NCBI RefSeq assembly: GCF_007197755.1
Contig: NZ_CP041636.1
Span: 1,152,001 to 1,216,000, forward strand
Length of the DNA stretch: 64,000 nucleotides
Reading direction: 5' to 3'
Origin: Ferrovibrio terrae
Lineage (GTDB): Bacteria > Pseudomonadota > Alphaproteobacteria > Ferrovibrionales > Ferrovibrionaceae
The notes beneath the pieces were generated by a model. The model did not search any database. It worked only from the letters and a program-made list of their open reading frames with translations, and had not been told where the DNA came from. Below are positions 993-18,851 of the stretch, piece after piece. The first letter of the stretch is position 1; each line of letters begins with the position of its first letter. A program made the position numbers and the translations under genes.

Positions 993-1850
993 TCAGACCT
1001 TGATGATGTAGTTGAGGATCAGCGTCGGCTGCACGTTGTTGTGCGGCTGGTCGCCACCGGTCGGCAGCGCGACAGCGCCGTAATACAGATACTGGTGGAT
1101 GGCGACACCACCGGGGGTCAAAGCGGATGCCGGGGTTTCGCCGACATTGACGTCATGGCCATGGGACGCCAGTTCCGCCACAGTCAGCTGATGCTGTTGA
1201 TTGCCACCAGCAGCACCCAGCGCGCTGCCATTTAGCCCAGCCGCCGAACCAGCGGTCAGGCGGTTGGCGGACGTGCCGCCCATATTGTCCTTGCCAGCCG
1301 CAACACGGCCGCGCAAATCCGGCAGGTTGAACGTCGTCGTACCGTCACCAGAGCCGTAAGTGGTGCCAACGACCGCGAACAGACCCGCACAGGTCTCGCG
1401 GCCGACGGCAGCACCATCGCAAAGCAGCCAGCCATCCGGCGCAATGCCGCCAGCAAAAGGCGAGACCAATCCACTCGGGATCAGACCATCAGTGACCGTG
1501 ATCTGCAGGATCTCGTCGTCGCCGTCCTCAAGCTCGGTGAGGGCAATCCCGGCGCCAGCGACCAACTTCTGCACCAGCGTATCGGCCGTGGTGTCGTTGC
1601 CGGAGACATGCACGGTCTGCAGCCGGCGGATGCGTATGACATCGCCGATTGCCGGCGCCACAGCAAAAGTCACGGTGCCGCCGAAAGGATTCCCCGTGTC
1701 GTAGACCGTGACACCAGTCGCCGGCGCGCCATTCAGGTAGACCGCGATCTCGGCAGCAGTGGAGAAGGTGAATGGAATGGTGAAAAGCACCGTGCTGCCA
1801 TTGCCTTCATAGGTGACGCTGGCATTTCCAGTACTGGTAGGAATCGACAT
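993..1850 (-). CDS. Tail fibre/collar protein with C-terminal phage tail-collar domain
   Basis: A 285-residue virion protein. The first ~110 residues resemble the N-terminal attachment domain of T7 gp17-type fibres (YEGNGSTVLFTIPFTF, then VIRIRRLQTV). From about residue 130 the pattern GWLLCDGA...TFNLPDLRGR is the phage tail-collar domain found at the tips of short tail fibres, followed by a His/Gly-rich receptor-type end. Start at ATG 1850 is preferred over 1862 because GTGAGG lies just upstream. It is separated from the collagen-like fibre by the radical SAM/ATP-grasp cassette, so the phage has two fibre-type proteins that share the same kind of N-terminus. This one has only two cysteines and lacks the Asn-Cys tail. 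Confidence 0.85.
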   Translation of the reverse strand: MSIPTSTGNASVTYEGNGSTVLFTIPFTFSTAAEIAVYLNGAPATGVTVYDTGNPFGGTVTFAVAPAIGDVIRIRRLQTVHVSGNDTTADTLVQKLVAGAGIALTELEDGDDEILQITVTDGLIPSGLVSPFAGGIAPDGWLLCDGAAVGRETCAGLFAVVGTTYGSGDGTTTFNLPDLRGRVAAGKDNMGGTSANRLTAGSAAGLNGSALGAAGGNQQHQLTVAELASHGHDVNVGETPASALTPGGVAIHQYLYYGAVALPTGGDQPHNNVQPTLILNYIIKV

Positions 1851-1901
1851 GGAAAACCTCACTGTAAAAATATGATTTGAAAATGGCCGGCTTCGTCCGC
1901 G

Positions 1902-1930: not shown

Positions 1931-2008
1931 TCAGTCCCAGTGAATCGCCATCGCAGCCACCAGCAGCAGCGCGGCGGCCAGATCCGTGATGGCAAGCGAT
2001 GCGGTCAT
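1931..2008 (-). CDS. 25-residue single-span membrane peptide
   Basis: A very short frame coupled by an ATGA overlap to the stop of the ATP-grasp gene. The product has a hydrophobic core (LAAALLLVAAMAI) after an Asp and ends in HWD, so it could form one transmembrane helix. In T7 a one-span holin (17.5) lies between the fibre and the small terminase, and this peptide occupies the same relative place. At 25 residues it is far shorter than known T7-type holins, so a holin role is only a possibility. Evidence that it is real: tight translational coupling and a strong Shine-Dalgarno immediately after it. Confidence 0.45.
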   Translation of the reverse strand: MTASLAITDLAAALLLVAAMAIHWD

Positions 2009-3207
2009 CGCGCGATCTCGTCGGCGTAGTGCAGCCTGATGCCGGCACGGAAGCGTTCTGCGTCAGCCGTGCAGGTGGCGAGATCGGCGCCAAGCGTGAC
2101 GAAACACGGCATCACGCCGGCCTTGTCGAAACCGCCCACAGGACTGCCGCAGTCTTCGGCGGTCAATCGCACCGGCAGGATATGCGGCGGCACTGGCAGA
2201 TGTTCGACCGCAGCGATCCTGCGTCGGGGATCACCATTCACCAGATCGATCACTGTCACCGGTGCGGGAAGTGGCAGGTCGAGTGGCGCGTCGAACAGCA
2301 GGGCCGCCAGCAGGCGGCGATGCGCCGTAGGATCTGCCACGCCAGCTACCCAGTCCCAGGTTGTCGTCAGGCGGAGATTGATATCGATGAGATGTAGGCC
2401 GTCCGGTCCACGGATCCCATGCACATTCATAATACCGCGTCCCCAGGCCGGATCGCGCCGCCGCAGACGATCAAGGTGCGGCAGGTTTTCGATCAGATCC
2501 GGCGCGGCATTATTGTGGAAACAGGCCCGGCGCCAACGCGGTCCGTCGACACTGCCTGCACCGGTGAGTTCGAAATATCCGTGGCTCCGGTAGATGACAT
2601 GCATCTGCGACGCCGTTAGCAACAACATGGCACCTTCCGTACAACTGCCATCCAGAGCGGCCTGCAGCAGCGCCGGGCCAAGCGCCTGAGGTTGACGCTG
2701 TTCGGCGAAGAATGGGGTTTGCAGCCCCTCTTCCCGCAGCCAGCGCATAAAGTGGTCTTTGCTGTTGAAACGGCGATAGCCCCAGGGCCGCGGTGACCAG
2801 CCACCGGACGAGCGCGTCGGTTTCACGATGATCGGTCCCGACCAGAGCCAGCCGAAAATATCTTCTGGCGTCAACGGCAGACACTGTGGCAGCAGCGGCA
2901 GATCGAAGATCTGGCTCAGTAGCGGAATTCCCGTCGCTTTATCAGCCAGCTGATTTATCAAGCCGACTGATAAGCCACCGCATCCATGGCGCTCGTTCAG
3001 ACGCGCGGCCACCAGGGTCAGGGCATCACTGCAGGCAATCGCCAGAACGATTGCCTCGTCGCCCGCCATGGCTTCGACGACTTCTGACCGGTCACCGACA
3101 ATGATGCGCGCCGGTACACCCAGCGATTCGGCGGCGGCACGCAGATGTGCGGCCTTATCCCGACTCTCGTGGCTGGGTGCGGCCAGCAGAAGCAGAGGCT
3201 TGCTCAT
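2005..3207 (-). CDS. ATP-grasp family enzyme of the phage fibre cassette
   Basis: A 400-residue protein that I read as an ATP-grasp ligase, the family that activates carboxylates with ATP and joins them to an amine, hydroxyl or thiol. Visible elements are GPIIVKPTRSSGG (residues 124-136, with the expected nucleotide-binding Lys129) and LIDINLRLTTTWDW (273-286, the metal-binding Asp/Asn strand). The N-terminal ~120 residues form a plausible pre-ATP-grasp domain. Its ATG overlaps the stop of the radical SAM gene, so the two are translationally coupled and probably act on the same target. ATP-grasp enzymes paired with radical SAM enzymes are known in RiPP pathways; in a phage tail operon I know of no described case. 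The substrate is not visible from sequence. Confidence 0.7.
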   Translation of the reverse strand: MSKPLLLLAAPSHESRDKAAHLRAAAESLGVPARIIVGDRSEVVEAMAGDEAIVLAIACSDALTLVAARLNERHGCGGLSVGLINQLADKATGIPLLSQIFDLPLLPQCLPLTPEDIFGWLWSGPIIVKPTRSSGGWSPRPWGYRRFNSKDHFMRWLREEGLQTPFFAEQRQPQALGPALLQAALDGSCTEGAMLLLTASQMHVIYRSHGYFELTGAGSVDGPRWRRACFHNNAAPDLIENLPHLDRLRRRDPAWGRGIMNVHGIRGPDGLHLIDINLRLTTTWDWVAGVADPTAHRRLLAALLFDAPLDLPLPAPVTVIDLVNGDPRRRIAAVEHLPVPPHILPVRLTAEDCGSPVGGFDKAGVMPCFVTLGADLATCTADAERFRAGIRLHYADEIAR

Positions 3208-4547
3208 GCGGCCACCTCCAGGCTGGCAGGATCGATCACCGCCATGCGTTCGGGCAGGCCGTCGCGCCGCGGCGGACCTTCAATCTCGACCAACACCAGG
3301 TGCGTCAGCCAGTAAATGGCGGCAGCAAAGACGCCGAGATTATGCCAGTAGCTGTTGTCACAGGCCTGGCGCCAGAGGTCGTCTTCGAGAAACAGGCAGG
3401 CACCCTGGCAGAGTGGCAGCACTGGGCAGTTGCCGCACTCGCTGCGCGTCGACCAGTGATAGGCGGTATCGAGACGGATATCCTGCATCGCCTCGACATG
3501 GCCGATGCGATGCTTGGTATCGGCCGACATGTTCTGGCAAGTGAGGGCATTGCCCTTCAGATCAACCGCCAACCGGCCCGGATCGTCCATGCCGCATTTC
3601 TGGCCGAGCGCCGCAGCCGGCCGACCTTCCGCCAGTTGGCGGAAAAAGCCAGTGATCTTGTCGCGGATCGTGCTGACCGACATAGACTCGCCACGCACTG
3701 CTTCCCAGAAGACGGCGGCCATGAAAGCACGGCCTTCCTCCTCATTGCGCAAACTGAGTCGCTTGCCGTTCTCATCGTAGGGCAACAGTACCTCTTCGGT
3801 GACCATCGGCAGATCCGCTTCCGGTACACCGAGTGCCGTCGCAATATGTCGGCGCGCTGCGGTCAGAGACATGTTGCGACGATGCAGCACCGCGTTGAAG
3901 CTGACGCGATGCTGCGGTGCCAGCCGATCATAGAGCAGCCGCAGCATGGCACGCTTGTGCGGATCGGCCAGCGGATCCGGACCACGGTACTTCATCGCCG
4001 GCCCGTCATGGCTGATGCCGATGCCGAAACCCATACGATCCAACCAGTCGATCTTGGCTTCATCCAGCAGCGAACCATTGCTGACCATACCGAAACCCGC
4101 CTGTGGAAACCGCGTACGCAAGGCTTCGGCCAGTGGTTTCAGCGTCTTCCAGTAGACGAAAGGCTCGCCGCCCCAGAATTCGATCCGCTGCGGTTCGCCC
4201 TCCAGCCAGTCGGACAACGTGGCGAGAAACCGATCGACATCGGTCGGATCACCCTGGCTGTCATGCGGCTGATGCGCTTGATTGCAATACTGGCAACTGT
4301 AATTGCATTTCAGCCCGAGCTGGATTTTCAGCACACGCACCTGCCGCTGCTTGCCCGCCGGCAGGGTCGGATGCACCGGAAAAGCGGGTTGCCATGCGCG
4401 GGGCGTATCGACGTAGCCATGACCGACGCCGCTCAGATCAAGCGGTGTGCCGTCATCCCAGCAAAGCCTCGCAGCCTGCGGTGACCAGAAAGCAGTCCGG
4501 CGATAGTCACCAGGACCAGCGAAGATAAGACGATAGAGCGGCGGCAT
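3204..4547 (-). CDS. Radical SAM/SPASM peptide-maturase-like enzyme
   Basis: A 447-residue radical SAM enzyme. The cluster motif CNYSCQYC (Cys81, 85, 88; CX3CX2C) and the SAM-contact motif GGEPF (126-130) are intact. The C-terminal part carries a full seven-cysteine SPASM domain: Cys318, Cys337, then CX2CX5CX3C at 371, 374, 380, 384, and Cys396. SPASM enzymes with these auxiliary clusters modify ribosomal peptides and proteins (PqqE, sactipeptide and ranthipeptide maturases, anaerobic sulfatase-maturating enzymes). The start at ATG 4547 has GGAG 8 bases upstream. It lies between an unknown protein and a coupled ATP-grasp gene, downstream of the fibre with a repeated Asn-Cys tail, which is the most likely substrate. 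The chemistry (for example a thioether at Asn) is inference. Confidence 0.9.
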   Translation of the reverse strand: MPPLYRLIFAGPGDYRRTAFWSPQAARLCWDDGTPLDLSGVGHGYVDTPRAWQPAFPVHPTLPAGKQRQVRVLKIQLGLKCNYSCQYCNQAHQPHDSQGDPTDVDRFLATLSDWLEGEPQRIEFWGGEPFVYWKTLKPLAEALRTRFPQAGFGMVSNGSLLDEAKIDWLDRMGFGIGISHDGPAMKYRGPDPLADPHKRAMLRLLYDRLAPQHRVSFNAVLHRRNMSLTAARRHIATALGVPEADLPMVTEEVLLPYDENGKRLSLRNEEEGRAFMAAVFWEAVRGESMSVSTIRDKITGFFRQLAEGRPAAALGQKCGMDDPGRLAVDLKGNALTCQNMSADTKHRIGHVEAMQDIRLDTAYHWSTRSECGNCPVLPLCQGACLFLEDDLWRQACDNSYWHNLGVFAAAIYWLTHLVLVEIEGPPRRDGLPERMAVIDPASLEVAA

Positions 4548-4573
4548 GACAATGCTCCGGGCAGGAAACGGAC

Positions 4574-5536
4574 TCAGACGATCGTGACGATCTTTTCGTC
4601 GACACCGCTAAAATTGCGCCAACCGACCTTCAGTTTGATTTTGTCGCCGGCGTTTAAGCCCAGGGCCATCAGTGGAAAGCTGCCGATTCCGTTACTGATC
4701 TCGACTTGGCGCTGCGGCAGATAGCCGGCGTTACATTCGAGGTAGACTTTGGCGTCCACGTCATCGACCAGCGTATCGGTGTTCTTGCTGAACATCTCAA
4801 TGTTGTAAGTTGCGGCTTGGCCGGCCGGGATGGTGTCGGAGCCAGACAAGCGCAGCGAGGCAAACAACGCCTTGAAGCCGTATAGCGGTTCGAGATCGTA
4901 TGGCCCCAGACCGATCTTGATGGTTGGCATCTGCTTGTGGCTGGCGAAATTGTGAATACAGCCGAAAGCCGGGTTGTATTTCACGACAAAGACGCAGTTG
5001 GAGAAATCCTGCCGCGCGAAAGGCACATTGAGCATCATGAGATTTATCTCCTTGCGCCCGATCAGCAGGTTGTAGTGATGCTCGCGGCTTGGCTGCGTGG
5101 CAAGGTAGCGGTTAAACGGCATCGACAGCTTGCCGTCGCGCGTGGCGTTGAAGGCCCAGATGGCGTAGTCGGACCAGGCTACAGAGCCCAGCACCCCGGT
5201 ATCGATCCGGAAGCCGACCTGGCTGATCGGCTGCAGGAACAGATTCCGGTTGCGCGATCCTCCGACATACTGGCCGCCTAACGCCTCCAGCGGAATCCAG
5301 TGCCTCTCACGGATCTCGCGCGAAACCGCGAGATCGGAATCAAGCTCGAAGGGCTCCGCATGCCCACCATAAATCGCGACTGCGTCTTTCACCGGCATCG
5401 CCGAGGCAACGGCAGCATCTTCACTCAACCGCCAGGTGCGCAATGTGATCCGGTCGGAATCTGTCTTTGCCTCCACGACAAATGGAGTTTTCAAACCGGA
5501 CCAGAGGAAATTGTGTCGTTGAAACAGGGCGCTCAT
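4574..5536 (-). CDS. Unknown beta-rich phage tail protein (320 aa)
   Basis: I do not recognise a named family. Start ATG 5536 follows GGGAG and lies 13 bases after the fibre stop. The sequence looks beta-rich throughout; the last ~90 residues (from SGSDTIPAGQAATYNIEM to the end) have the alternating pattern of a bacterial Ig-like domain. Several aromatic and charged stretches suggest a virion surface or adhesion protein. It contains one SNC motif and few other cysteines. Position between the fibre and the radical SAM gene allows two readings: a receptor-binding or fibre-tip component, or a scaffold/recognition partner that presents the fibre tail to the maturase. Neither can be decided from sequence alone. 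Confidence 0.6.
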   Translation of the reverse strand: MSALFQRHNFLWSGLKTPFVVEAKTDSDRITLRTWRLSEDAAVASAMPVKDAVAIYGGHAEPFELDSDLAVSREIRERHWIPLEALGGQYVGGSRNRNLFLQPISQVGFRIDTGVLGSVAWSDYAIWAFNATRDGKLSMPFNRYLATQPSREHHYNLLIGRKEINLMMLNVPFARQDFSNCVFVVKYNPAFGCIHNFASHKQMPTIKIGLGPYDLEPLYGFKALFASLRLSGSDTIPAGQAATYNIEMFSKNTDTLVDDVDAKVYLECNAGYLPQRQVEISNGIGSFPLMALGLNAGDKIKLKVGWRNFSGVDEKIVTIV

Positions 5537-5549
5537 CTGAATCTCCCGA

Positions 5550-7400
5550 TCACTTGCAGTTCCAGCAGTTCGAACAGTCACAGTTGCAGTTACAGTTACA
5601 GTTACAGTTCGAGTAGCAGTTGGTCTGACCGCAATTGCAGTTCTTCCAGTCACGCCGCTGGACGTCGAAACCGATTTCAGTACGCAGAAGGTAGTAGGAG
5701 CCATAAATCCGCTCGTTGGTCTGGCTGACCGGCTGGTTGGTGGTCGACGATCCGCCGGCAAAGTCGTAGCCGGGATTCACGTAGGGCAGACCCAGTCCCC
5801 AGCTCCACCAATTGGCATTCGGCATACTCCAGCTGGTGTTGCTGAAGCAGTTGCCGTTCGGAATGATGCCAGAGCAGTTGGCGACCTGCTGTTCCTCGTA
5901 GAGGGTTTCGCGGGTACGATGCAGGATCGCGTAGCCGACATCCTGCCCGCTGCCGAGCAGGAAGCCGGTGGCGAGTGGCGTGGTGCCATTGCTCTGCAGG
6001 CTGGGCGCGACCAGTGGCCCGGTCATGATATCGCCGTCCTTTTCAACGAAGCCGCTCGGTGCGTCCTGCCAGGCCACATCACCGTCGTCATTCGATGCCT
6101 TGGCCAGCACCTGACCTTCGTTGCCGCCATGCGGAACACCGAGGCCTGGTGCGCCATCTTCGCCAGGCAATCCCTGTGGACCGAGTGGACCCACCGGCCC
6201 CTGCGCGCCTTGCGGTCCCTGCGCGCCGGTCGGGCCGACTGGCCCGGTCTCGCCCTGCGGACCCTGAATGCCCTGCAGACCGCGCGCCGCCAGCAGCGAC
6301 CAATGCGCCGTATCATCGGCAGGTATCATGCTGCCGCTCACTGCATCGATGCAGACATAGCTTTGGCCTCCATGCTGAACCGCATCGTCGGCAGCATAAG
6401 CCGTCGCAGCCAGCCAACCGCCGCGCCAGGTCAGACCACGCGGACCCTGTGCGCCCGTCGCGCCAACCGGGCCCTGCGGACCCTGCGGACCGAGTGGACC
6501 CTGCAGACCCTGGACGCCCTGCGCTCCCTGCGGACCGGCCTCGCCGCGGCCGAAATAGATGCCGTTCGACCAGTCGGCCGCAGCATTGCTCAGCTTGAAG
6601 AAGAGTTGGCCGAGATCGGCGGCGAGAAACGCGAAGCCCGCGGTGGCTGCGTCATGCGATGTGCGCTGGGCGTAGCCGCCGATCGCATCCGGCGTAAACG
6701 ACTGGCCCGGCGCACCTGCACTGCCCTGCACGCCCTGCGGACCCTGCGGGCCTGTTGCGCCCTGCGGACCCAGCGGGCCGGCGGGACCAGCAGGGCCGGG
6801 GTTGCCCTGCGGACCCGGGGGCCCGCCCACACCCTGTATGCCCTGCGGTCCCGTCACACCCTGCGGGCCGATCGGACCTGCAACACCCTGCGGACCCTGC
6901 GGACCGACCGGACCGGAGGGGATCGATCCCTCGCCGATCAGTTGCGGCTGACCATCGCCATCGAAGCCCAGCACGCGATTGGCGCGCGCACCAGACGGCA
7001 GAACAAGATCCTGCGCGGCCGGGAACGCCGCGCCTGGCGCCAGCTTTACGGCGCGAGCGACCTTTTCATCGACCTGCTGCACCAGCCGCGTCAGCCGTTC
7101 GAATTCGGCATTCAGCGCTTCGGCACGTAACACACCACCTTCGGAAAATTGTGGACCGCTGGCCAGGCCGACAATGCGTGCGATCGTCACACGCTGACCG
7201 GCCTGCGGCGGATTATCGGCGAAGGCAATTGTGCCGCCATCGCCGTTATTCAGCAGGTCGACCGTGTAATCGCTGCGCGGGCCGTCATCGACCCAGACAT
7301 GCAGTTCGGCTGCATTGGACACCGGAAATTCAAACGGAAACAGTTGCTCCACGCCAGTGGCGATCAGCTGGATTCTCGGAATGAGTGAAGATGTCGTCAT
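5550..7400 (-). CDS. Collagen-like tail fibre with Asn-Cys repeat C-terminus
   Basis: A 616-residue fibre. Residues 1-150 match the T7 gp17-type N-terminal domain that attaches to the tail ([29 protein letters not shown]). Three collagen-type Gly-X-Y stretches follow at about 163-233, 287-323 and 374-422, expected to form a triple-helical shaft. Between them, residues 324-372 ([17 protein letters not shown]...YVC) resemble a small carbohydrate-binding module. The final 29 residues (588-616) contain 11 cysteines, ten preceded by Asn and one by Asp; two more Asn-Cys pairs occur at 508-509 and 517-518. GGAGAT precedes the ATG. The free Cys density is odd for a cytoplasmically assembled fibre, and the adjacent radical SAM and ATP-grasp genes suggest the tail is enzymatically modified. 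Confidence 0.88.
5553..5642 (-). repeat. Asn-Cys codon repeat encoding the fibre C-terminal tail
   Basis: The core is a 6-bp DNA repeat (AACTGT/AACTGC on the minus strand) run five to six times without interruption and then with spacers. The synonymous Cys codons TGT and TGC are mixed, as expected if the protein repeat is kept by selection and not only by slippage. It encodes residues 587-616 of the fibre. Confidence 0.85.
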
Positions 7401-15401: not shown

Positions 15402-15435
15402 ATGCAAATTCGTTGATTTGCAAGACAATCTTCCC

Positions 15436-16071
15436 ATGCTGACACATCGCGCGATCTGGGCTGCCATTGATGGCCTTGCCGAACGCTATGACCTGACCGC
15501 GTCGGGCCTCGCCCGCAAAGCCGGGCTTGATCCCACCACCTTCAACCGGTCCAAGCGGATTTCCCGCGATGGCAAGCAGCGCTGGCCATCGACGGAATCG
15601 ATCGCCAAGGTGATCGAGGCGACCGGGGCCAGCGTGCCGGAATTCATGGACCTGCTGAGCGAAAGCGGCGGTGTGCCGCGTAGCGTGCAGCGTGTGCCGC
15701 TGATCGGTCTGGCGCAGGCCGGCAAGGACGGTTTCTTCGATGATGCCGGTTTCCCGACCGGCGAAGGCTGGGAGAAGGTGCCCTTCCCCGAGATTGGCGA
15801 TCCGCAGGCCTATGCACTGGAAATCAGCGGCGACAGCATGCTGCCGGTCTATCGCGACGGCGACATCGTGATCGTGTCACCGGCCGCCAGCGTGCGCCGC
15901 GGCGACCGCGTGATCGCCAAGACCATGCAGGGCGAAGTAATGTGCAAACTGCTGTCGCGCCGCACACTCACCCGCATCGAACTCTCCTCTTTCAATCCCG
16001 CCTATCCTGAACGCGGCTTCGACGTGCACGACATCGCCTGGATCGCCCGCATCGTCTGGGCGGCACAGTAA
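15436..16071 (+). CDS. S24-family repressor (helix-turn-helix plus LexA-like peptidase domain)
   Basis: A 211-residue regulator. The N-terminus (AIDGLAERYDLTASGLARKAGLD) is a helix-turn-helix of the CI/Cro type. The C-terminal half is an S24 domain with the self-cleavage Ser in ISGDSMLPVYRDGD (about residue 135) and the Lys in GDRVIAKTMQGE. Such proteins are inactivated by RecA-stimulated self-cleavage after DNA damage. Similar regulators occur both in prophages and as stand-alone chromosomal genes in alphaproteobacteria, so it may belong to the phage or to the host. The repeated TTCCTGT sites at its own promoter and at both leftward phage promoters favour control of the phage genes. The start at ATG 15436 fits the family better than TTG 15418. 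Confidence 0.85.
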   Translation: MLTHRAIWAAIDGLAERYDLTASGLARKAGLDPTTFNRSKRISRDGKQRWPSTESIAKVIEATGASVPEFMDLLSESGGVPRSVQRVPLIGLAQAGKDGFFDDAGFPTGEGWEKVPFPEIGDPQAYALEISGDSMLPVYRDGDIVIVSPAASVRRGDRVIAKTMQGEVMCKLLSRRTLTRIELSSFNPAYPERGFDVHDIAWIARIVWAAQ

Positions 16072-16076
16072 TCGCA

Positions 16077-18851
16077 ATGACGGACTCCTTGGCAGCCGCG
16101 CTCGGTCGACTGCCGGCGCTGGTGGCCGGTGGAGGCTTTGCCTGGTGGTTCGAGAACGGCCATCTCGAAAAACTATCGCCCGATACCGCTGCGCGCCGCG
16201 CGCGCGCCACGCCACCCCTGCTGGTGCATTTCAAGGCCACGGCCGCGAAACTGGGCGTCGAGCCCTTCATGGCCTTCGACCTGCTCGACCTGTTTGCCTT
16301 CGTGCGACCGGCGCGCTTCTGTCTGCCGACACCGCATGGCCTGCTGGAACGCCTCAGTCTCGACGCCGCCGATGACGAAGAGGCTGTGCAGTATCTGCAT
16401 CATGCCGCCCAGATGCTGCTGGAAGACCTGCCGCGCCAGCAGCCGCGCGCGCTGCGTCGTTCGATGCGACTGGCGCAATTACTGAACAAGGCTGGCTGGC
16501 CCTGGGCGTCGTATCTGCTGCTCGGACTGGGCCCGGAAGCAACACAGGCACCGAGCGGCGGCTTCGGTGGGCTGGATGTCTGGCAGGAGCTGCCCGAGTG
16601 GGTCGACTACGCGCCACCACCGCCACCCGATACGCAATCGGTGTCGCCGACGGAAGCGCGCGAACGGCTGGCGCAGCTGCTCGGCACCACAGCAGAGCTG
16701 CGCGAGACGCAGGCCGACTATGCCGCCACGGTGGCACAGGCCTTTGCGCCGCGCGAAGTGATCGGCATGCCGGAAATGGTGCTGGCCGAGGCTGGCACCG
16801 GCATCGGCAAGACACTGGGCTATATCGCGCCGGCCAGCGTCTGGGCCGAGAAGAATGGCGGCACGGTCTGGCTCTCGACCTATACCAAGAACCTGCAGCG
16901 CCAGCTGGATCACGAACTCGACCGCCTGTTCCCCGACCCTGCCGAGAAGCAGGGTCGAGTCGTGATCCGAAAAGGCCGCGAGAATTATCTCTGCCTGCTG
17001 AATCTGGAAGACGCGACGCAGGGCGGCGCAGCGCGGCCACAGGATATGGTGCCGCTCAGCCTGATCGCACGCTGGGCCAGCGCGACGCGCGACGGCGATC
17101 TGGCCGGCGGCGATTTTCCCGCCTGGGCCGCCGATCTGCATGGCCGTAACCGCACTTTAGGTCTGACCGACCAGCGCGGTGAATGCATCCACGCCGCCTG
17201 TCCGCATTATCGCAAATGCTTCATCGAACGCGCCGTGCGCAAGTCGCGCAAGGCCGAGATGGTGATCGCCAACCATGCGCTGGTGATGATCCAGGCTGCC
17301 ATGGGCGAAGACGATGCGCAGAAACCGCTGCGCTATGTCTTCGATGAAGGCCATCACCTGTTTGAAGCCGCCGACAGCGCTTTCGCCGCACATCTGACCG
17401 GCATGGAAGGCGTCGACCTACGGCGCTGGCTGCGCGGCCCTGAAGGCGGACGCCGAAGCCGTGCACGCGGCATTGCCAACCGCATTGGCGACCTGGTGGC
17501 GCAGGACGAACGCGGCCGCACGGCACTTGAGGCCGTGGTGGAAATGGCGCGCTGCCTGCCGGGTGAAGGCTGGCTGGCGCGGCTCAGCGAGGGCAATCCG
17601 ATGGGCCAGGGCGAGAAGTTTCTGGCCCGCGCGCGCCAGCAGATCCTGGCGCGCAGCGCGCAGCCGGACAGCCCCTATGGACTGGAATGTCCGACGAAAG
17701 AACCGGTGAACGGCCTGATCGATGCAGCAATGGACTTCGCTCATGGCATCGACCGTGTGCTGGAACCAGTGAACACGCTGACGAAATCCCTGAGCGACAT
17801 GCTGGCGGACGAGACTGCCGAGCTGGACACCGCCACGCGCTCGCGCATCGAAGGCGCGCTGCGCGGCCTGCTGCGGCGCAAGATGACGCTGGACGCCTGG
17901 CGCAGCATGCTGCTCGACTTGCAGACCGAAACACCGGCAGCTTTCGTGGACTGGTTCGGTCTGGAGCGCATCGACGGTCGCGACCTCGATCTCGGCCTCT
18001 ATCGCCATTACCTCGATCCGATGCTGCCCTTTGCCGGCGCCGTGCTGAAGCCGGCGCATGGCGTGGCGATCACATCCGCCACTTTGCGCGACATCGCGCC
18101 GGCCAAGGCCGATGCCTCGCCCGAGGCCGCCTGGGACAGCGCCGAGATCCGCAGCGGCGCGCGGCATCTGCCGCAGCCTGCGCGACGTGCCGCTTTCCCC
18201 TCGCCCTTCGATTACGCAAACCGCACGCGCATTTTCGTCGTCACCGACGTGCGGCGCGACGCGATGGACCAGGTGGCCGCCGCCTACCGCGAACTGTTTC
18301 TCGCCGCCAACGGCGGCGCGCTTGGGCTTTTCACGGCGATCTTCCGTCTGCGCGCGGTACAGAAGCGCGTCATCAGACCGCTGGCCGAAGCCGGGCTGCC
18401 GCTGTATGCGCAGCATGTCGATCCGCTGGACAACGCCACGCTGGTCGACATCTTCCGTGCCGAGGAACACGCCTGCCTGCTGGGTACCGATGCGATGCGC
18501 GATGGCGTCGATGTGCCGGGCGCCTCCTTACGCCTCGCCGTATTTGACCGCGTGCCGTGGCCCCGGCCGGACCTGCTGCACAAGGCGCGCAAGTCAGCCT
18601 TCGGCGGCCAGGCCTATGACGATCTGCTGACGCGCCTGAAACTGAAGCAGGCCTATGGACGCCTGCTGCGTCGCGCCGACGATTACGGCGTGTTTGTCGT
18701 GCTGGATGCTCAGCTTCCGTCTCGTCTGCTGTCGGCATTTCCGGCCAGCGTCGAGGTGAAACGCATCGGCATCCGCGAGGCCGTGGCCGAGACGGCGGCT
18801 TTTTTGAACAGCATGCGCGCCAGCACTGGCGGCCAGCAGAATCTCGCGTAA
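16077..18851 (+). CDS. DinG/XPD-family ATP-dependent DNA helicase
   Basis: A 924-residue superfamily-2 helicase. After a ~220-residue N-terminal region without a clear domain come Walker A (AEAGTGIGKTLGY, about residue 240), an iron-sulfur type cysteine set (YLCLL, then ECIHAACPHYRKC), the DEAH-like box FDEGHHL, and the C-terminal motor domain with LLGTDAMRDGVDVPG. These features indicate a 5'-3' FeS helicase of the DinG type, associated with R-loop and damaged-fork processing. It begins five bases after the S24 regulator, so the two are probably co-transcribed; a damage-responsive regulator with a repair helicase makes sense. Confidence 0.88.
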   Translation: MTDSLAAALGRLPALVAGGGFAWWFENGHLEKLSPDTAARRARATPPLLVHFKATAAKLGVEPFMAFDLLDLFAFVRPARFCLPTPHGLLERLSLDAADDEEAVQYLHHAAQMLLEDLPRQQPRALRRSMRLAQLLNKAGWPWASYLLLGLGPEATQAPSGGFGGLDVWQELPEWVDYAPPPPPDTQSVSPTEARERLAQLLGTTAELRETQADYAATVAQAFAPREVIGMPEMVLAEAGTGIGKTLGYIAPASVWAEKNGGTVWLSTYTKNLQRQLDHELDRLFPDPAEKQGRVVIRKGRENYLCLLNLEDATQGGAARPQDMVPLSLIARWASATRDGDLAGGDFPAWAADLHGRNRTLGLTDQRGECIHAACPHYRKCFIERAVRKSRKAEMVIANHALVMIQAAMGEDDAQKPLRYVFDEGHHLFEAADSAFAAHLTGMEGVDLRRWLRGPEGGRRSRARGIANRIGDLVAQDERGRTALEAVVEMARCLPGEGWLARLSEGNPMGQGEKFLARARQQILARSAQPDSPYGLECPTKEPVNGLIDAAMDFAHGIDRVLEPVNTLTKSLSDMLADETAELDTATRSRIEGALRGLLRRKMTLDAWRSMLLDLQTETPAAFVDWFGLERIDGRDLDLGLYRHYLDPMLPFAGAVLKPAHGVAITSATLRDIAPAKADASPEAAWDSAEIRSGARHLPQPARRAAFPSPFDYANRTRIFVVTDVRRDAMDQVAAAYRELFLAANGGALGLFTAIFRLRAVQKRVIRPLAEAGLPLYAQHVDPLDNATLVDIFRAEEHACLLGTDAMRDGVDVPGASLRLAVFDRVPWPRPDLLHKARKSAFGGQAYDDLLTRLKLKQAYGRLLRRADDYGVFVVLDAQLPSRLLSAFPASVEVKRIGIREAVAETAAFLNSMRASTGGQQNLA

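Follow-up and report, generated by a model that had tools for sequence, protein, structure and literature searches.

Among the described systems closest to the one considered here, QhpD is a maker of thioethers that acts on a protein subunit and not on a peptide product, and in graspetide and grasp-with-SPASM systems an ATP-grasp enzyme stands beside a SPASM enzyme and a ribosomal substrate. PapB, a maturase of ranthipeptides, is described in the portion of the literature drawn on here as coupling Cys to the beta carbon of Asp, as tolerating zero to six intervening residues, and as installing six Cys-Asp links in one substrate (PMC9413430). On the side of the virion, the excerpted account of HxH iron sites places them in gp37 of phage T4 and proposes them for an Alteromonas phage fibre (PMC11705849). 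The window analysed here, a stretch of 64,000 nucleotides from Ferrovibrio terrae (contig NZ_CP041636.1, positions 1,152,001 to 1,216,000), carries a gene cluster to be compared with these systems in a T7-like prophage. On its minus strand T7-like structural genes are followed by a tail fibre ending in an Asn-Cys (NC) repeat, a beta/immunoglobulin (Ig)-like protein called MID, a radical S-adenosylmethionine (SAM)/SPASM enzyme, an ATP-grasp-like protein and a collar-domain protein. The explanation that we favour, and consider probable from the gene content and its conservation, is a phage-encoded cassette that matures a virion protein in the manner of ribosomally synthesized and post-translationally modified peptides (RiPPs), with the radical SAM enzyme acting on the NC repeat and most likely introducing Cys thioethers.

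A preliminary description of the window had listed a fibre, an unknown protein, a radical SAM enzyme with complete CX3CX2C and seven-Cys SPASM motifs, and an overlapping ATP-grasp gene in a T7-like structural setting, and had noted 11 Cys in the fibre tail, ten of them after Asn. All of these were recovered. The open reading frames (ORFs) are as described, the translated fibre has the 11 Cys, with Asn before ten and Asp before one, and the enzyme passes the cut-offs of both the Pfam Radical_SAM model PF04055 (36.2 bits, cut-off 29.5) and the SPASM model TIGR04085 (34.6 bits, cut-off 27). Its CX3CX2C motif lies at C81/85/88 and its SPASM cysteines at C318/337/371/374/380/384/396, and none of the ten cluster cysteines varies across the 58 dereplicated sequences compared, that of the window among them. 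It also matches phrog_1802, 'radical SAM domain-containing protein' (E 1.1e-54), a label that gives no substrate, reaction or NC-repeat partner. Among the best 25 of its 46 NCBIfam matches no equivalog cut-off is passed. The top match is QhpD (TIGR03906), with 62.7 bits against a cut-off of 453, which the distant relatives L010 and L057 likewise miss with 43.1 and 77 bits; PapB (NF047865, cut-off 340) comes third with 53.8 bits and is the best NCBIfam match for L010 (58.6 bits) and L057 (80.2 bits). The model of anaerobic sulfatase maturases (TIGR03942) gives 43.7 bits at a cut-off of 349.45. The locus shares the radical SAM and SPASM domains with the PapB systems, from which it differs in that the PapB substrate is a small precursor and the candidate here a phage fibre with NC repeats, and from QhpD systems in that no dehydrogenase is found among the cassette proteins scanned. 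No PqqD or RRE match was obtained in the window proteins with Pfam.

How general is the association of the enzyme with NC repeats? Loci were collected from both ends of the pairing. A search of IMG/VR with the enzyme gave a viral set (the best 80 of 121 relatives) and a search of GTDB genomes with an alignment a genome set (the best 80 of 108); the controls were 63 viral loci retrieved with an unrelated pattern of ATPase type. An NC-repeat ORF was defined as a same-strand ORF with at least three consecutive xC dipeptides, where x is N, D, A, S, G, T or Q, and at least one NC. Of the sets found by the radical SAM sequence alone, the viral one has such an ORF in 72 of its 80 loci and the bacterial-genome one in 60 of 80, counts taken before dereplication and with contig-end loci included, as compared to 2 of the 63 controls, where both frames (145 and 126 codons) look spurious. 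NC ORFs on the opposite strand that do not overlap same-strand ones occur in three of the 80 viral loci and one of the 80 genome loci. After dereplication at 90% and among loci with adequate flanks (4.5 kb upstream and 1.5 kb downstream), an NC protein is encoded in all 28 viral loci and in 36 of the 44 genome loci; for the resulting 64/72 versus 2/63 the Fisher test yields P 1e-26, in which relatedness is only partly removed by dereplication. The first protein set of loci lacked L004 and L083, and the first gene caller missed some genes, for example the MID gene of the window.

The reverse search, a DNA scan for NCNCNCNC, provided 80 loci out of at least 120 stretches. Seventy of them have the repeat in frame, eight with NC DNA identical to that of forward loci, and a radical SAM enzyme (hidden Markov model (HMM) E ≤ 1e-5) is encoded in 52 of these 70; where the repeat is out of frame the enzyme is found in 0 of 10. 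With at least 3 kb of downstream sequence the fraction is 42/46, and the four misses (L091, L137, L142, L158) are frames of 40-210 residues that look spurious or consist of simple sequence. Most reverse misses are edge effects. The idea of long NC-tailed proteins without the enzyme was dropped, as such loci among the 18 reverse misses have less than 2.7 kb of downstream DNA. Neither was the notion supported that any phage radical SAM enzyme would do, given that three others, from Thermus, Erwinia and Campylobacter phages, have NC ORFs within about 6 kb in 0/3 cases, a small sample. The NC proteins range from about 70 to more than 600 residues, have very different bodies and are encoded upstream or downstream of the enzyme. 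The link between enzyme and tail is therefore general across diverse phage loci, and the enzyme very likely acts on the NC tail. Of the earlier proposal that the fibre tail is the substrate of the radical SAM enzyme in a phage-borne cassette, the substrate part has gained strong support from the two-way co-occurrence, and enzyme homologues do not regularly sit in prophages devoid of a Cys-rich tail, as the counts for loci with adequate flanks indicate; the crosslinking chemistry stays a guess from weak enzyme relatives. The three-part association of NC fibre, SPASM and ATP-grasp enzyme that had been suggested as a database check held for the NC and SPASM components, and the ATP-grasp gene was present in just 5 of 133 dereplicated loci. 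Separately, four loci (L095, L101, L136, L160) contain frames of 67-82 residues with an HTHxFxDDY...CNCNCNC motif and a much weaker radical SAM match (41 to 175 bits), which may represent a distant second form of the pairing.

The tail itself seems to be maintained for its protein sequence. In 100,000 shuffles of the last 47 fibre residues NC dipeptides number 2.3 on average and never more than 7, as compared to the 10 observed. Across the 24 tail codons from QRRDW onward, seven related homologues differ from the window by 49 synonymous and 5 non-synonymous changes, the latter sparing all Asn and Cys codons, indicating that the tail is under purifying selection and conserved at the protein level. 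An origin of the NC tail as a chance or microsatellite feature was rejected in view of the shuffles, the synonymous changes and the 2/63 control loci. In 118 distinct tails from dereplicated loci the residue before Cys is Asn in 693 of 1,034 cases, Ala in 156 and Asp in 75, and the commonest spacing is two. In 93 of 127 proteins the NC run ends at most 10 residues before the C-terminus. In others a further domain comes after the run, by pattern a conserved 'KIIC' domain in 19, and a start resembling Hint in eight or S74 in two; Pfam searches place the Hint domain of L088 above the cut-off, those of L026, L252 and L257 below it, and the S74 domains of L038 and L056 above it. Domains of the Hint and S74 kinds catalyse their own cleavage in known proteins, so that an internal run preceding them would become C-terminal. 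The KIIC domain comprises about 170 residues directly after the NC run (L057:7305-8195 and 18 others), and the L057 copy has no Pfam, NCBIfam or PHROG match at the limits used. Some loci encode two small NC-tailed proteins in tandem (L010:3708-4272, L014:3995-4573, L279:3297-3764).

Two clades of enzyme relatives are devoid of an NC protein. One consists of three Variovorax loci and one gammaproteobacterial metagenome-assembled genome (MAG) (L270, L276, L285, L272), the other of three Bacteriovorax-type MAGs (L280, L282, L286). In three of the four members of the first clade a short ORF with a shared Cys-containing motif lies just upstream of the enzyme, perhaps encoding a small cellular RiPP precursor. 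The motif, C-x-V ... VAG ... DC, is located in L270:5720-5929, in L285:5705-5920 and within 5572-5928 of L272, and was not found in L276. In the second clade the enzyme has as neighbours a PqqD-like gene (L282:7287-7616) and an ABC-2 transporter gene (L280:7057-7800). Both clades resemble cellular RiPP loci. They are exceptions to any strict one-to-one rule, yet they fit an enzyme that is a peptide maturase. On a FastTree phylogeny of 133 rows, with long branches flagged, the NC state switches 12 times when all rows are counted, contig-cut loci included, and three times when the count is limited to the 86 loci with full flanks; the tree and the 78/86 figure for full-flank loci include loci found through the repeat.

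Two further protein families accompany many of the cassettes. MID was detected by HMM in 68 of the 133 dereplicated loci, mostly upstream of the enzyme, and 2-oxoglutarate (2OG)-Fe(II) oxygenases in 74; among the forward-found loci alone the fractions are 47/105 and 61/105. Neighbour scans covered 87 of 107 non-NC upstream ORFs and 72 of 99 downstream ones, the rest having been left out by eye as short, dubious or near-duplicate, and PF13759 was matched by 31 of the 87 ORFs immediately upstream. A common operon order is NC protein, MID, oxygenase and radical SAM enzyme, as in L010 and L214. In the clade of the window no oxygenase match was found among the cassette neighbours. The predicted MID structure (AlphaFold2 on 31 sequences, predicted local distance difference test (pLDDT) score 82.1) is beta-rich in its N-terminal part and Ig-like towards the C-terminus. 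Phage proteins make up its good structural matches, and the ones that bear names are uncharacterised; folds in the PDB gave Ig-like and other matches of low template-modelling score, and family searches gave weak, scattered ones. MID is probably a virion or assembly protein. A fatty acid desaturase family (PF00487) was matched by 5 of the 72 downstream ORFs scanned, hence directly downstream of the enzyme in five loci.

The ATP-grasp protein is an accessory of narrower distribution. Its fold is supported by a predicted model (six sequences, pLDDT 81.6) for which Foldseek retrieved 1b6s (E 1.4e-13) and VIA the L-amino acid ligase 3vot (Z 20.6, 337 residues at 3.9 Å), with GAR synthetase and PurK-type enzymes at tied Z. 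Sequence searches lent the assignment no support: there was no Pfam match, no NCBIfam match at E ≤ 0.1, and no match at E ≤ 10 with phmmer against solved structures. All five dereplicated loci that carry it belong to the clade of the window, where it follows the enzyme in every member with downstream sequence, and a viral scan with the ATP-grasp alignment returned four loci, all on already-seen contigs of the same clade. It was consequently rejected as a standard cassette member, contrary to what the preliminary description implied; the usual partners are MID and the oxygenase, the latter absent from the window. The analogy to graspetides drawn there finds no support in the best folds listed, which are of amino-acid-ligase and PurK/GAR-synthetase types, though a role of graspetide kind may still apply; the protein is confined to one small clade. 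Lys ends 6 of 6 dereplicated NC tails of this clade as compared to 2 of 86 other C-terminal tails, and for this reason the terminal Lys or its carboxylate is a plausible site for the ligase.

How could such a cassette work? In the proposed mechanism the enzyme, with S-adenosylmethionine and its auxiliary Fe-S clusters, would act on the NC repeat either ahead of assembly or in its course, joining Cys sulfurs to carbons of neighbouring Asn or Asp as thioethers, with a loss of 2 Da each, and the product would be a compact, reduction-proof fibre tip. Thioethers are proposed because the nearest named relatives, PapB and QhpD, make them; they are the best single guess, about as apt to prove wrong as right. 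The 2OG-Fe(II) oxygenase would often add a second change, perhaps a hydroxylation, for which the ATP-grasp ligase would stand in here, perhaps forming an amide at the conserved terminal Lys or at the tail carboxylate. Self-cleavage would leave the repeat as the new C-terminus wherever Hint or S74 follows it. As in RiPP systems, a conserved, repetitive, modifiable candidate substrate is encoded together with the enzyme; its role as substrate we infer. Several points weigh against this proposal. The pairing is known here from genomes alone, from which we infer the reaction, and kinship among the loci is only partly removed by dereplication. An NC protein is missing from 18 of the 133 dereplicated loci, and while 10 of these have short flanks, it is absent despite sufficient flanks in the two clades described above and in L235. 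The scores of the window enzyme are far below the cut-offs of the named maturases (PapB 53.8 of 340, QhpD 62.7 of 453). Both MID (68/133) and the oxygenase (74/133) are non-universal, and the ATP-grasp protein is tied to the tail by adjacency and the terminal Lys alone. Furthermore, a Cys-rich tail could serve as metal ligand without any modification.

Alternatively, the enzyme may modify the NC tail by other chemistry, converting Cys to formylglycine, epimerising alternate residues or introducing another carbon-centred change, which we regard as unlikely. A formylglycine-studded tip would bear aldehydes that could react with amines of the host surface, and a dipeptide repeat of such strict alternation would be compatible with a helix of alternating D and L residues, for which polytheonamide-type peptides are an analogy. 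The sulfatase maturase model is indeed among the weak matches of the window enzyme, and a homologue in one GenBank record of Achromobacter phage JWF is annotated as anaerobic sulfatase maturase. QhpD and PapB nonetheless outscore this model in all three members compared (window, L010 and L057), and the window tail contains no Pro and therefore no CxPxR, the sulfatase motif. The prevalence of Asn before Cys also suggests that Asn itself takes part.

It could further be imagined that the NC repeat forms a tip for metal or Fe-S binding, much as T4 gp37 binds iron at its HxH sites, with the enzyme targeting something else or merely helping in loading. The alternating CxC in a trimer resembles HxH, and the HxH fibres, in which closely spaced metal-capable residues are likewise found (PMC11705849, as far as the excerpt goes), are the nearest analogue for a tail acting as metal site. 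Those fibres, however, carry His, whereas here Cys is combined with a co-encoded modifying enzyme of a known peptide-maturase type. Metal ligation alone should not need a dedicated SPASM enzyme, and this enzyme accompanies NC proteins of very different bodies, making a mere metal site improbable. More improbable still is an association inherited by position, with the radical SAM gene as an auxiliary gene aimed at host proteins or metabolites within a conserved tail module. Phage radical SAM genes, which may or may not belong to the present family, appear among auxiliary or Fe-S genes in the sections of two studies considered (PMC5332604, PMC7150976). NC proteins of such different lengths on either side of the enzyme argue against it, as does the recovery of the enzyme with the NC repeat alone as query; shared position alone would not conserve the repeat. 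Maturation of the NC tail by the radical SAM enzyme thus remains the explanation that we prefer.

The features of the window are collected in Table 1. The structural genes match T7-like major head, head-tail adaptor, tail and internal virion protein families. The fibre matches phrog_5073 (E 1.1e-47) and, over residues 1-112, phrog_1640. MID starts at an ATG at 5536, and the listed ORF 4574-5761 begins at an upstream TTG within the fibre gene; the ATG of the ATP-grasp gene overlaps the radical SAM stop codon by 4 nt. Because of the CI-like repressor, encoded divergently from the structural genes, the phage may be temperate. The whole genome (one 4.26 Mb contig) contains a single match to the radical SAM enzyme, and a close copy (76%) is present in 1 of 9 other genomes of the genus, so that the cassette is not fixed in the genus. 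The nearest named locus, Ferrovibrio MAG L213, is also at 76% and perhaps represents the same contig as this copy.

Table 1. Positions of the cassette and of neighbouring phage genes in the window.
Feature	Position	Strand	Basis or remark
Collagen-like tail fibre, 616 aa	5550..7400	-	Pfam Collagen E 8.8e-21; PHROG tail fibre/tail families
Asn-Cys repeat C-terminal tail of fibre, 30 residues + stop, ends in Lys	5550..5642	-	Proposed substrate
MID, beta/Ig-like protein between fibre and radical SAM enzyme	4574..5536	-	Family HMM, AlphaFold2 model
Radical SAM/SPASM enzyme, 447 aa	3204..4547	-	Pfam, NCBIfam, phrog_1802
ATP-grasp-fold protein, 400 aa, amino-acid-ligase/PurK-like, clade-specific accessory	2005..3207	-	Predicted model
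Collar-domain tail protein, downstream of cassette	993..1862	-	Pfam Collar E 4e-22; context, outside general cassette
CI-like repressor	15418-16071	+	Family match
Gene matching phage DNA helicase family, next after CI-like repressor	16077-18851	+	

A phage SPASM enzyme together with an NC-repeat fibre is not described in the open-licence PubMed Central papers surveyed, preprints excluded, as judged mostly from titles and the beginnings of abstracts. In its widest form, which we advance tentatively and hold somewhat doubtful, the proposal would be that a poly-Cys tip with a covalent finish is shared by tailed phages with many different hosts and body plans: radical SAM enzymes would set thioethers through the NC repeats of fibre or tail-tip proteins, oxygenases or ligases would decorate them and self-cleaving domains would expose them. 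Virion proteins would then be handled like RiPP precursors, in a general class of virion maturation based on radical chemistry. Should this hold, many of the radical SAM genes of environmental phages, hitherto classed as auxiliary, would encode virion-maturation enzymes. Receptor-binding tips would then have a chemistry invisible to genomes and structure predictors, and both host-range studies and the production of recombinant fibres would overlook it as long as the enzyme is not expressed alongside. The loci would also offer many and varied pairs of enzyme and substrate in which to study radical chemistry on Cys repeats, a question directly accessible to mass spectrometry. Given the recurrence of the pairing in many diverse phages, these probably finish their own fibre tips chemically.

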